From Phaeovibrio sulfidiphilus (lineage in GTDB: Bacteria; Pseudomonadota; Alphaproteobacteria; Rhodospirillales; Rhodospirillaceae), in assembly GCF_014861485.1 (NCBI RefSeq), contig NZ_JACZHT010000004.1, positions 124,001 through 188,000 on the forward strand: DNA of 64,000 nt, in the 5' to 3' direction. The position numbers and the translations under genes were made by a program. Below the pieces are notes generated by a model that had not been told where the DNA came from, made no database searches, and saw only the letters and a program-made list of their open reading frames with translations. Positions 30,985-34,949 of the stretch are shown here, in pieces (the stretch's first letter is position 1; every line of letters begins with the position of its first letter).

Positions 30985-33276
30985 TCAAGAGCCTTCCTTG
31001 CGGACGAAACTGGCCATGACCTTGCGCCGCCCCGCGTGGCGGAAATCGATTTCCAGGCGCTCGCCCGAGACATCGACCACGGTGCCCGGGCCAAACTTGT
31101 CGTGGTGGACCCGGTCCCCCCGGGCATAGGTCCCGGTGCTTTTGCGCGGGGCCTCCGCCCAGGGCGTGCCGTCGGACTCGAACACCCGTCCGCGCGACAG
31201 GCTCTGGTGGGCGGGCTGCTGCCAGCCGCCGACCTGTCCCCAGCCCCCGGGGGCGGGGCGGTAGCCCTGCGCTCCGGAGCCGTAGACGCCGGTCTCGCTC
31301 TGGCGCTCCAGAAGATGCTCCGGGAGCTCGCCCAGGAAGCGCGACGGCATGCACACCCGCCAGTCATTGAACAGGCGCCGGCTTCCGGCGTGGGTGATGT
31401 ACAGGCGCCGCTTGGCCCGGGTGATGCCCACGTAGGCCAGGCGCCGCTCCTCCTCCAGGCCGTCGGCGCCGCCTTCCTCCAGGGCCCGCTTGTGGGGGAA
31501 GGTCTCCTCCTCCCAGCCGGGCAGGAAGACGGTCTCGAACTCCAGCCCCTTGGCGCCGTGGAGAGTCATCAGGGTGATGGCGTCCTCTTCGGCCCGGGCC
31601 TCGTTCTCCATGACCAGGGAGACGTGTTCCAGGAACTCGCCCAGGGTCTCGAACTCCCGCAGGGCGCCCACCAGCTCCTTGAGGTTTTCCAGGCGGCCCT
31701 CGGCGTTCGGAGCCTTGTCCTTGCGCCACATGTCCGTGATGCCGCTCTCGTCCAGGACCAGGGCGCACAGGTCCGAGGGGCTGCGGTCCATGGCCATCAG
31801 GCTCCAGCGCGACACGTCCTCGAGGAAGCGGCCGAGAGCGTTGCGGGCGGCGGGGCGCAGCTCGTCGGTCTCGAGGATGCGGCGCGAGGCCTCCACCAGT
31901 CCGATGCGCTCAAAACGGGCCAGGCGGTTCAGGGTCTGGACCGTGGCGTCCCCGATCCCCCGGCGGGGCAGGTTCACGATGCGCTCGAACGCCAGCGAGT
32001 CGGCGGGCTGGTGGATCAGGCGCAGGTAGGCAAGAGCGTCGCGGATTTCCTGGCGCTCATAGAAGCGCGGGCCGCCGATCACCCGGTAGGGAACTCCGGT
32101 GCGGATCAGGTGTTCCTCGAACTCGCGGGTCTGGGCGCCGGTGCGCACCAGGATGGCCATGTCGTTGAGGGCGTGCCCCCGGCGCTGGAGGGTCTCCACC
32201 TCCTCGACGATGCGCCGGGCCTCCTCGCCGCCGTCCCAGACGCTGAGCACCTGCACGGGCTCGCCTGCGGGGGCGCTGTCGTCGGCGGCGCGCAGGTCTT
32301 TGCCCAGGCGGCCCCGGTTGCCCCGGATCAGGGCGCTGGCCACCTCCAGGATGGTGGGGGTGGAGCGGTAGTTGCGCTCCAGCCGGATGACGCTGGCTCC
32401 GGGGAAGTCGTGCTCGAAGCGCAGGATGTTCTCCACCACCGCGCCGCGCCAGGAGTAGATCGACTGGTCATCGTCCCCCACGCAGCAGATGTTCCCCGAG
32501 CCCTGCGCCAGAAGGCGGAGCCACAGGTACTGGGCCACGTTCGTGTCCTGGTACTCGTCCACCAGAATGTAGCGGAACTGCCGGTTGTAGTGGGCCAGCA
32601 CATCCGGGTGGCCGGTAAAGATGGTCAGGCAGTGCAGGAGGATGTCGCCGAAGTCCACGGCGTTCAGGATGCTCAGACGGTCCTGGTAGGCGGTGTAGAG
32701 CGCGGCCAGCTTCCCGCCGGCAAACGCGTTGCCCTTTTCCGAGGGGGGCAGGGTGTCGGGCCGGTAGCCCCGGTCCTTCCAGCGCTGGATGAGCCCGCCC
32801 GCCATCTGGGGCGTCCACTTCTTGATGTCGATGTCGTCGGCTTCCATGATCTGCTTCAGAAGCCGGACCTGGTCGTCCGTGTCCAGGATGGTGAAGCCGG
32901 GCTTCAGGTTCACCAGCTCCGGGTGGCGGCGCAAGATGCGCAGCGCCAGGGAGTGGAACGTGCCCAGCCAGACCGACTCGGCGGCCGGACCGATCAGGCT
33001 CGCGGCGCGCTCGTGCATCTCGCGGGCGGCCTTGTTGGTGAAGGTCACGCACAGCACGTTCCAGGGCTTCACCGCGCAGGTGGCCAGAATGTAGGCAAGC
33101 CGGGTGGTCAGGACGCGGGTCTTGCCCGTGCCCGCTCCCGAAAGCACAAGGACGGGCCCCTCGGTTGTGGTGACGGCCTGACGCTGCTCGGGGTTCAGGG
33201 ACTCAACCCAGGGAGGGGTCACCGTGGCCGGCGGGGCCGGGACGAGGTCATCGTCCAGCGAAAAGGGATCGTTCAT
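30985..33276 (-). CDS. uvrD: UvrD/PcrA-like ATP-dependent DNA helicase
   Basis: A superfamily 1A 3'-5' helicase, used in nucleotide excision and mismatch repair or for clearing proteins from DNA. The 763 residues contain LNPEQRQAV (Q motif), Walker A GAGTGKTR, TFTNKAAREM, DEYQDTN, GDDDQSIYSWRGA, RNYRST, LMTLHGAKGLEFE and YVGITRAKRRL. A C-terminal Tudor-like module (VHHDKFGPGTVVDV) is typical of UvrD/PcrA. I chose ATG 33276 (MNDPFSLDDD); upstream in-frame sequence overlaps the divergent higA promoter and lacks family similarity. Confidence 0.93.
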   Translation of the reverse strand: MNDPFSLDDDLVPAPPATVTPPWVESLNPEQRQAVTTTEGPVLVLSGAGTGKTRVLTTRLAYILATCAVKPWNVLCVTFTNKAAREMHERAASLIGPAAESVWLGTFHSLALRILRRHPELVNLKPGFTILDTDDQVRLLKQIMEADDIDIKKWTPQMAGGLIQRWKDRGYRPDTLPPSEKGNAFAGGKLAALYTAYQDRLSILNAVDFGDILLHCLTIFTGHPDVLAHYNRQFRYILVDEYQDTNVAQYLWLRLLAQGSGNICCVGDDDQSIYSWRGAVVENILRFEHDFPGASVIRLERNYRSTPTILEVASALIRGNRGRLGKDLRAADDSAPAGEPVQVLSVWDGGEEARRIVEEVETLQRRGHALNDMAILVRTGAQTREFEEHLIRTGVPYRVIGGPRFYERQEIRDALAYLRLIHQPADSLAFERIVNLPRRGIGDATVQTLNRLARFERIGLVEASRRILETDELRPAARNALGRFLEDVSRWSLMAMDRSPSDLCALVLDESGITDMWRKDKAPNAEGRLENLKELVGALREFETLGEFLEHVSLVMENEARAEEDAITLMTLHGAKGLEFETVFLPGWEEETFPHKRALEEGGADGLEEERRLAYVGITRAKRRLYITHAGSRRLFNDWRVCMPSRFLGELPEHLLERQSETGVYGSGAQGYRPAPGGWGQVGGWQQPAHQSLSRGRVFESDGTPWAEAPRKSTGTYARGDRVHHDKFGPGTVVDVSGERLEIDFRHAGRRKVMASFVRKEGS

Positions 33277-33355
33277 TCGACTCTCGTGAGAAAAACCTGG
33301 ACCGTGAACGTCCGCGGATGTGCGTCGCCCGGTGAATATGGGGGCCGGAATGCCG

Positions 33356-33383
33356 TTGCACGAGGGGACGTTTGGGTTATCGT
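33356..33383 (+). promoter_or_regulatory. Candidate promoter of the higA-like gene
   Basis: TTGCAC (33356-33361) and TATCGT (33378-33383) are separated by 16 bases, about 40 bases before the GTG start. An imperfect inverted repeat, GGTTATCGTTACC, overlaps the -10 and could be an autoregulatory operator. Confidence 0.4.
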
Positions 33384-33421
33384 TACCATGCTCCGGCTCA
33401 AAAGGGGGAGGAATCGACGCC

Positions 33422-33802
33422 GTGGAACGAAAAAACAGGGTGCCGCATCCGGGAGAAGTCCTGCAACGCACGTTCATTGATCCCAACGGGCTGGGGATCA
33501 ACCAGCTTGCGCGCTATCTGGGGGTGCCCGCGGGGCGCGTCAGTACCATTGTCAACGGGCAGCGGGCGGTCAGCGCGGACACGGCGGTCCGTCTCGCCCG
33601 CTTTTTCGGCACGACGGCGCTGTACTGGATGAACCTCCAGGCCCGCTATGACCTGGCGCAGGCGGAGGAGAGCCTCGAGAGGCAGGCGGCGGCGCCCATT
33701 CCGACCATGGCCGAGGTGCTGGCCCAGCCGGCCCCGGTTGCGGCTCCGGAAAAGAAGGAGGGGCGCTCGTTCTTGGGCTTCCCCTTTCGCAAGGGCGGCT
33801 GA
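33422..33802 (+). CDS. HigA-family antitoxin-like transcriptional regulator, orphan
   Basis: A 126-residue protein with a helix-turn-helix of the HigA/VapI addiction-module family: PHPGEVLQRTFIDPNGLGINQLARYLGV, followed by RVSTIVNGQRAVSADTAVRLARFFGT and WMNLQARYDLAQAE. HigA antitoxins neutralise an RNase toxin and repress their own operon. No HigB-like gene is next to it: the helicase lies upstream on the other strand and about 530 bases without a gene follow. The last ~40 residues (Pro/Ala/Glu then RSFLGFPFRKGG) extend past the usual family end. GTG 33422 is supported by GGAGGA 9 bases upstream. Confidence 0.85.
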   Translation: MERKNRVPHPGEVLQRTFIDPNGLGINQLARYLGVPAGRVSTIVNGQRAVSADTAVRLARFFGTTALYWMNLQARYDLAQAEESLERQAAAPIPTMAEVLAQPAPVAAPEKKEGRSFLGFPFRKGG

Positions 33803-34331
33803 GGGTCGGGGCGGTTCAGGGCGCGGCTGGGGCTGAGGTCCAGTTCATCGCGGGCCGGGGGCGCCGTGCCGCTTGCGCGCCAGGTGGAGTGCGGAGGCAC
33901 AGGCGTTCCCGCCGTGGGACCGGCGCTCCGGGTGGGGGCTCCGGGGTCTGTTTGAGCCGGGAGCGGGGCGTGCGCCCACACAAGTTCCTGCTGAGGGCGC
34001 GGGTGCCCCCGGGGCGTGGCGTCCCGGTTGGTGGTGTTCCCGTCCCTCTCTCAGAGCTCGCCCCTCATTGTGCCCCGCATGGAGTCGCGCCGTTGGGACG
34101 CCGGGGTGGCCCCGGCCGCCGATGTCCTTTCGGACTCGGGGTGGCCCGGCCGCCAATCTTCTGTCGGGTTTGTGGTCCGATAACCCGCGAGGGCGTGTCC
34201 CGCCCCCGATCCCCTGTCGAGCTCCCCGTCCGTTTGCCCCATAAAAAAAACCGCCCGGCGCGTTCGCTACCGAGCGGTTTTTTTCATTCAGGCGGTGTTA
34301 CAAGAACACCATCCCTACCCGAACCTGGGGA
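33803..34331. other. Intergenic region between higA-like gene and antenna genes
   Basis: About 530 GC-rich bases with no supported gene. The only clear element is the intrinsic terminator at 34243-34284 at its right end. Confidence 0.5.
34243..34284 (-). terminator. Intrinsic terminator of the antenna operon
   Basis: A7CCGC (34244-34254) pairs with GCGGT7 (34274-34284), with extra pairing inside the loop. Read on the minus strand it ends in a run of eight T, 48 bases after the alpha-subunit stop. It is symmetrical enough to stop transcription from the left too. Confidence 0.8.
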
Positions 34332-34514
34332 TTAGTGACCCCGGGCGGTCCAGCCCTCGACGAGCGGCTTCAGGAGGGTTTCGCTGAACGGGCTGTTGAA
34401 GACGTGCAGGTGCACGACGATGGCGACGAGGGTCGCGACAGCCGAGGAAAAGAACAGCGCGTGAGCCGGGTTAACGATGAGCCAAACTCTCCACATGCCT
34501 TTATCTCCGAACAT
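34332..34514 (-). CDS. Light-harvesting antenna complex alpha subunit
   Basis: A 60-residue single-span antenna polypeptide that binds bacteriochlorophyll in the photosynthetic membrane. It opens MFGDKGMWRVWLIVNP, continues with a hydrophobic span (about 18-40) and has the ligand H35 in AIVVHLHV. The MWRxW start recalls LH1 alpha, while WLIVNP recalls LH2 alpha, so I do not choose puf or puc. The C-terminal aromatic residues that usually follow the ligand (FNW in LH1 and some LH2; W, Y, W at +9, +13, +14 in the acidophila-type LH2) are missing: the segment reads NSPFSETLLKP. ATG 34514 has GGAGA 8 bases upstream; the ATG at residue 7 is an alternative. Confidence 0.85.
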   Translation of the reverse strand: MFGDKGMWRVWLIVNPAHALFFSSAVATLVAIVVHLHVFNSPFSETLLKPLVEGWTARGH

Positions 34515-34562
34515 GGGTCTTTTCTCCGAAAAAAAGAAGGTTGCCGTGGTGTATTCTGCAGA

Positions 34563-34577
34563 TCCGGTCAGACCGGA
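34563..34577 (-). promoter_or_regulatory. Intercistronic hairpin between antenna beta and alpha genes
   Basis: TCCGGT and ACCGGA form a perfect 6-bp stem around a 3-base loop, 10 bases after the beta stop. Intercistronic hairpins in puf/puc mRNAs are known to affect segment stability; here this is inference. Confidence 0.45.
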
Positions 34578-34586
34578 GCGCAAAAC

Positions 34587-34736
34587 TTAGAACCAGGGAA
34601 CGTAGCTGAAAACGACGACGTGGAAGCAGACAGCGCCCAGCAGGAAGCCGGCGAAGCCGCGCATGTACCACTCACCGAATTCCATCGCTTCTTTTTCAGT
34701 GAGGCCCGACGGGTAAACTTTGGTATTGTCAGCCAT
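34587..34736 (-). CDS. Light-harvesting antenna complex beta subunit
   Basis: A 49-residue antenna beta polypeptide. It has a polar N-terminus (MADNTKVYPSGLTEKEAMEF), one membrane span and the ligand H39, and ends in the family signature PWF. SGLTEKEA matches the usual SGLTExEA. The second conserved His, normally 18 residues before the ligand (ELH or EFH), is replaced by Gly21 in EFGEWYM. GGAGG lies 9 bases before the ATG. Order beta then alpha is normal for puf and puc operons. No pucC, reaction-centre or carotenoid gene is nearby, so this is a stand-alone antenna operon. Confidence 0.88.
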   Translation of the reverse strand: MADNTKVYPSGLTEKEAMEFGEWYMRGFAGFLLGAVCFHVVVFSYVPWF

Positions 34737-34753
34737 TGGATTTTCCCTCCAAA

Positions 34754-34921: not shown

Positions 34922-34949
34922 ACAATAGCAGGATTGTGGCAGGTGTCAA
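34922..34949 (-). promoter_or_regulatory. Promoter of the antenna operon
   Basis: On the minus strand a perfect TTGACA (34949-34944) and TATTGT (34927-34922) are 16 bases apart. The implied leader to the beta ATG is about 178 bases. Confidence 0.6.

Follow-up and report, generated by a model that had tools for sequence, protein, structure and literature searches.

A peripheral antenna gene pair of Phaeovibrio sulfidiphilus with glycine in place of histidine at the B800-site position of its beta chain

A light-harvesting gene pair on a contig of Phaeovibrio sulfidiphilus encodes an LH2 antenna of the known Pararhodospirillum LH2 lineage, with one unusual derived change at the B800-site position of the beta chain. 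The pair is located at 34332-34736 on the (-) strand of the window, that is, the whole stretch of 64,000 nucleotides analysed here (contig NZ_JACZHT010000004.1, positions 124,001 to 188,000), and both the coordinates and the sequence given for it in an earlier note check out. Judged from the sequence, the pair may encode a functional, fast-evolving LH2 in which B800 is lost or weakened and the B8xx ring absorbs at roughly 820-850 nm, a reading to which we give an even chance. That it is a naturally B800-free LH2 with only coupled B8xx pigments, the sole peripheral antenna of this bacterium, by way of the loss of beta His(-18), is a somewhat more tentative proposal (residue positions in brackets are counted from the ligand His of each chain).

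The pucB-like beta gene (34587..34736, (-) strand; 49 aa, MADNTKVYPSGLTEKEAMEFGEWYMRGFAGFLLGAVCFHVVVFSYVPWF) was assigned by profile match and alignment. Its product retains the ligand His39, the Ala at -4, Trp48 (+9) and the C-terminus PWF, while Gly21 replaces His(-18) and Phe38 stands at -1, where 158/160 surveyed cores have Ala. The pucA-like alpha gene (34332..34496, (-) strand, from the second ATG; 54 aa, MWRVWLIVNPAHALFFSSAVATLVAIVVHLHVFNSPFSETLLKPLVEGWTARGH) was assigned by homology; its stop codon TAA is at 34332-34334, the ligand His29 at 34410-34412, Thr(+11) at 34377-34379 and a second His(+2) at 34404-34406. Each chain has one His in a hydrophobic stretch that, by alignment, should ligate bacteriochlorophyll. 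The motif HLH at 34404-34412, with the extra His(+2) beyond the ligand, occurs in only one of 165 distinct alpha cores, that of the window. Beta Phe(-1) and alpha His(+2) are both private to the window and adjoin the B8xx ligands.

There are two in-frame ATGs for alpha, six codons apart (34494-34514), each with GGAG 8-9 bases upstream. Counted from the upstream one (34512-34514), the ligand is His35, as the earlier note had it, and the chain would carry a possible six-residue N-terminal extension, MFGDKG (34497..34514, (-) strand). The second ATG (34494-34496; MWRVW..., ligand His29) is the more likely start on sequence grounds, because the open frames of the nine relatives all lack an ATG further upstream than that Met. 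The choice matters, since an alternative start would alter the N terminus, which ligates B800 in some LH2s.

In the PF00556 search of the own genome, beta scored 23.6 bits, over the cut-off of 23, and alpha 17.1 bits, under it. A separate scoring (gathering score 23 bits) gave 24.3 bits for beta and 17.9 bits for alpha, again over and under, the latter for a stretch with an extra Gly and without the last His; the same alpha stretch, with one residue before Met and the final His missing, was used in the alpha alignment and the PDB search. The alphas of the nine relatives scored 21.8-27.5 bits. The genes are adjacent in the usual order, beta before alpha, and homologous pairs align along the length, namely eight of the nine relatives in each of the beta and alpha alignments and all nine in the tree alignment. 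Since PF00556 matches lie adjacent in the usual order, full-length homologous pairs exist and the tree places the pair with a support of 99/97, these are not chance open reading frames.

Several putative signals flank the pair. The Shine-Dalgarno sequence GGAGGG of beta (34745..34750, (-) strand) belongs to a TGGAGGG block found ahead of each of the ten distinct beta genes compared (10/10). About 190 bases upstream of beta there is a candidate promoter, TTGACA-16-TATTGT with TG before the -10 (34922..34949, (-) strand), which is a consensus match only (10/12; one found against 0.3 expected in shuffles). A GC-rich hairpin followed by eight T after alpha (34243..34284, (-) strand) is, by its fold, a likely rho-independent terminator; the fold of 34225-34337 amounts to -49.5 kcal/mol, a value without shuffle control, and the consensus scan found terminator-like sites after alpha on the + strand only, two against 1.7 expected. 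The codon usage of the pair resembles that of pufLM (+0.25 bits per codon); the antisense ORF control is nearly as high (+0.18), so this measure is not discriminating and was dropped as evidence of expression. Beyond the alpha gene lies an ORF (33320-33802, (+) strand) that, by eye, we take to be a HigA-like antitoxin, beside a UvrD-like gene (30985-33501, (-) strand).

The genome of P. sulfidiphilus comprises 2,585,463 bases in 31 contigs and is 97.6% complete. The strain DSM 23193 is described as a strictly anaerobic brackish-water purple bacterium with lamellar and vesicular membranes (excerpt of PMC7714858). At E <= 1 the genome has four PF00556 matches, one LH1 pair and the LH2 pair of the window; therefore, in the comparison with all puf and puc genes of the same genome that the earlier note proposed, the window pair is the only LH2-type pair found besides LH1. 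The LH1 pair, on the same contig at a distance of about 69 kb, is preceded by bchC and bchZ and followed by pufL, pufM and pufC. These five genes and puhA, which is on another contig, are all over the NCBIfam cut-offs; two ORFs lying between bchC and bchZ were outside that scan. At E <= 1e-20 there are two PUCC-family genes, the same number as in all ten genomes searched, which rules out a missing pucC as an oddity of this genome. One of them adjoins puhA. It presumably lies between puhA and a bchM-like gene, and the other between bchG- and bchP-like genes.

Of 73 genomes of the family, the own one included, 13 show a PF00556 match with an E value of 0.03 or better. Closest to the window pair are five LH2 pairs in genome G030 (one contig of 3,876,289 bases), which we take to be probably Pararhodospirillum photometricum DSM 122, and four in Pararhodospirillum oryzae NBRC 107573. 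In the tree, the window pair joins these nine LH2 pairs and not the LH1 of those genomes, with a support of 99/97, to be read with the size of the alignment (80 columns, 19 rows), a bootstrap that had not settled, loose inner forks and a long window branch. A search of genome contigs with the beta alignment gave 15 loci, three of them LH2 of P. oryzae and twelve others whose betas have His(-18). No relative of the pair was found among the viral contigs searched.

The window and Pararhodospirillum LH2 share the gene order, a beta start like MAD(NT)KVYPSGLTE, an alpha start MWR/KVWLxVNPA, alpha Ser(+9) and Lys(+14), and the beta end PWF. They differ in beta His(-18), Ala(-1) and Trp(-8), which are Gly, Phe and Phe in the window, and in alpha Tyr/His(+11) and Phe(+2), which are Thr and His. 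The window pair shares 41-49% identity with the nine pairs across 80 core columns, compared with 82-90% between the LH2 pairs of the two Pararhodospirillum genomes and 84-89% for LH1 across the three genomes. Therefore, LH2 has diverged far more than LH1 between both lineages, and the branch of the window has a length of 1.21 changes per column for LH2 but 0.055 for LH1. In 24 columns the window has a residue found in none of the nine relatives; some of these agree with LH1 (Ala at alpha -4 and beta -4, Phe at beta -8), so that some of the divergence may have arisen in Pararhodospirillum.

The truly derived change is beta Gly21, and its literature counterpart concerns B800 and not B850. It had been noted before that the beta chain keeps His39 and reads Gly21 instead of the conserved His 18 residues earlier, and this is indeed the case. 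The codon is GGT (34674..34676, (-) strand) where the relatives have CAC or CAT for His; the context is GAA-TTC-GGT-GAG-TGG in the window and GAA/G-TTC-CAC/CAT-GGC/TCC/TGC-TGG in the relatives. In the beta survey (196 records, 184 rows, six skipped as non-beta, the rest giving 160 distinct cores), position -18 is His in 157/160 cores and Gly in the window only; the loci were the best PF00556 scorers plus hand-picked stretches, a biased choice that may count too few odd betas. His also stands in all nine relatives, in 55/56 LH2-like cores, where the window is the one exception, and in 98/100 LH1 cores. Here, LH2-like means that the paired alpha lacks Trp(+11), which takes in a few Chromatiales-order alphas resembling LH1 with a one-residue gap, and the core groups add to 161 because one core was counted in two groups. 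The other two exceptions at -18 are Asn (L086) and Gln (L113), both in LH1-type betas. The six skipped loci (L067, L126, L146, L149, L153 and L155) are puf-region proteins that reached 15-26 bits against a home-made beta profile, with Arg at the position of the ligand His; they look to us like PufQ.

In LH2 of Rba. sphaeroides, beta-His22 bonds the alpha carboxy-Met1 and a water on B800, and its replacement by Ser removes almost all B800 absorption (excerpt of PMC8775250); for the same residue, numbered His21, an excerpt of PMC6358721 gives B800 binding as abolished by Ser. On the 7PBW chain, His22 falls at -18 from the ligand His40. Since the tested loss of His(-18) removed B800 in that system, loss or weakening of B800 is the most direct prediction for the window pair. 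The proposed mechanism would run as follows. The pair would encode the only peripheral LH2 found in P. sulfidiphilus, and alpha and beta would form the usual ring with one coupled B8xx dimer per pair. The lost His(-18) corresponds to the residue that, in Rba. sphaeroides LH2, holds the alpha N-terminal carboxylate ligating B800. Gly(-18) has no side chain, and B800 would probably be missing or only loosely held, so that the LH2 would show a single band, as LH1 does. With beta Trp(+9) retained and Thr in the place of Tyr/His at alpha +11, one or two C3-acetyl hydrogen bonds are predicted, and the band would fall in the range of about 820-850 nm. The sequence basis for a working antenna consists of both B850-type His ligands, beta Trp(+9), the gene order, a ribosome site in common with the relatives, and the presence of genes for the reaction centre and for bacteriochlorophyll at other places in the genome.

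However, several points weigh against the loss of B800. The mutagenesis was done in a system with a carboxy-Met1-type B800 site, whereas the window lineage has an LH1-like alpha N terminus; beta Arg(-10) is absent in the lineage (Ala29 in the window; A, F or G in the relatives); and another residue, such as beta Glu22 or Asp4 of an extended alpha, might serve instead. In addition, LH1 has no B800 and LH1 betas keep His(-18), so this His has other roles. Pararhodospirillum LH2, for its part, presumably binds B800 and shows a B800 band.

One alternative is an ordinary B800-B850-type LH2, with a B800 site independent of beta His(-18), a near-normal spectrum, and alpha Thr(+11), Ser(+9 or +6) and Asn(+5) replacing the aromatic donors. 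We regard this as possible and rather unlikely. It gains from the alpha residues at +9 and +14 and the kind of residue at +13, which are common to the nine relatives, from the retained beta Trp(+9), from the solved structure 9lt4, whose beta, named B-800-850, has Asn(-18), so that a residue other than His need not mean the absence of B800, and from beta Arg(-10), which contacts B800 in Rba. sphaeroides and is already missing in all ten pairs. On the other hand, Gly offers no side chain at a position that is otherwise His throughout the LH2-like cores, and the one tested replacement that we found, Ser, removed B800 (excerpts of PMC8775250 and PMC6358721).

The earlier note had read the pair as a blue-shifted or otherwise atypical antenna, perhaps made under special light. 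Such an LH3- or LH4-like antenna would have B850 moved to 800-830 nm by lost C3-acetyl hydrogen bonds, perhaps as a low-light form. We find this doubtful, about as much so as an ordinary LH2. The alignment behind it is correct: against the acidophila LH2 (1kzu/1nkz: His31; Trp40, Tyr44 and Trp45 at +9, +13 and +14), the window has Ser, Leu and Lys. The premise that LH alphas carry aromatic residues there holds for most of them and fails for 15/164 distinct cores, which have no Trp, Tyr or Phe at +9, +11, +13 or +14 (alpha survey of 180 rows, two skipped). Among these 15 are nine short LH2-like alphas and four with a one-residue gap from Thiorhodococcus- and Imhoffiella-related genomes; the window and a relative with His(+11) make up the other two. 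Moreover, all nine Pararhodospirillum LH2 alphas carry the same Ser(+9) and Lys(+14), with Phe or Leu at +13; these residues are therefore lineage traits, and a special loss of alpha aromatics in the window is ruled out. Thus, the close relatives share the alpha residues, and their B850 spectrum is presumably normal, a combination that the earlier note had named as speaking against its reading.

The template subtype matters as well. The best PDB match of the window alpha is the molischianum LH2 (1lgh_A, E 0.0034), which is therefore a better template than acidophila. There, the C3-acetyl groups have alpha Trp45 (+11) and beta Trp44 as donors, the latter numbered 45 in the table of the paper (excerpt of PMC9618040). 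Window beta residues 10-49 align to molischianum 6-45, and the ends of this alignment imply that it has no gap, in which case Trp48 falls on Trp 44 and one of the two donors is kept. Alpha +11 is Thr in the window and Tyr or His in the nine relatives, so that only the window among the ten pairs lacks an aromatic or His there. By the rule that two C3-acetyl hydrogen bonds give about 850 nm, one about 825 and none about 800 (excerpt of PMC9618040), the B8xx band would be expected at 820-850 nm, and a moderate blue shift is possible. Several facts lean towards the LH3/LH4-like reading, namely Thr at alpha +11 against Trp in LH1 and molischianum, the association of fewer hydrogen bonds with bluer bands, and LH2 of Marichromatium purpuratum, which has no alpha C3-acetyl donor and absorbs at about 830 nm (same excerpt), its beta Trp30 (-8) being Phe31 in the window. 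Nevertheless, the retained beta Trp(+9) makes a complete loss of hydrogen bonds unlikely, the acidophila-type donors are missing in the whole lineage, and no second, standard LH2 operon was found in the genome to which this one could be the alternative. Nor is there a sign of light regulation: in the 420 bases ahead of each of the ten distinct operons scanned, no PpsR-like TGTN12ACA site was found. There is no FNR site in these stretches either. What stands of the earlier note, then, is an atypical antenna, by virtue of beta Gly21; the blue shift argued from alpha is weakened by lineage traits and by a template of the wrong subtype.

That the antenna is decaying, a weakly used LH2 on its way out under relaxed selection in a small genome, is improbable: the low LH2 identity (41-49% against 84-89% for LH1), the long branch (1.21 against 0.055), the single LH2 operon, where the relatives have five and four, and the genome of 2.59 Mb would fit, but both frames are intact, the ligand His, the PW, the Shine-Dalgarno block and the beta N terminus are retained, and the columns matching LH1 may put part of the change on the Pararhodospirillum side.

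The B800-free LH2 complexes that we found in the literature were engineered or chemically stripped (an excerpt of PMC6358721 among it), and in the open-licence PMC literature no paper was found on a natural B800-free LH2 or on 9lt4. A natural one, if true, would show that an LH2 can do without the third pigment in nature, and would provide both a clean system for B850 energetics and a bridge between LH2 and LH1.

Among known systems, the B800-B846 LH2 of Phaeospirillum molischianum (1lgh) has the same beta Trp(+9) donor, corresponding to Trp48 of the window, and differs in its alpha Trp45 (+11) donor, which is Thr in the window. We also take its beta chain position 17 to be His, where the window has Gly, and the position of its alpha Asp6, the B800 ligand, to be that of Met1 in the window. 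The B800-B828 LH2 of Mch. purpuratum (6zxa) aligns at 6-48 with window beta 7-49 (E 2.6e-5, ungapped by its ends) and has Trp47 at +9; unlike the window, with Gly and Phe, its beta has His(-18) and Trp30 (-8), the latter also present in the nine relatives. The best PDB match of the window beta is 9lt4 (E 3.7e-7), which likewise lacks His(-18); it differs in having Asn(-18) and Arg(-10), and its alpha, named B-800/814, was matched with an acidophila-type query. The chains concerned are i and A. The beta-His22 to Ser mutant of Rba. sphaeroides shares the loss of the -18 His, with B800 absorption almost gone (excerpt of PMC8775250), but it is engineered, has Ser and not Gly, and has a carboxy-Met1-type B800 site with Arg(-10). 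Finally, LH3 (B800-820) and the PucD-LH2 of Rps. palustris (B800-803) resemble the window in an alpha without the Tyr44/Trp45-type donor pair (excerpt of PMC9618040). However, the PucD beta (7ze3_B) keeps His(-18), Rps. palustris has several puc pairs against the one found here, and, in contrast to both of these complexes, beta Trp(+9) of the window may serve as a donor.
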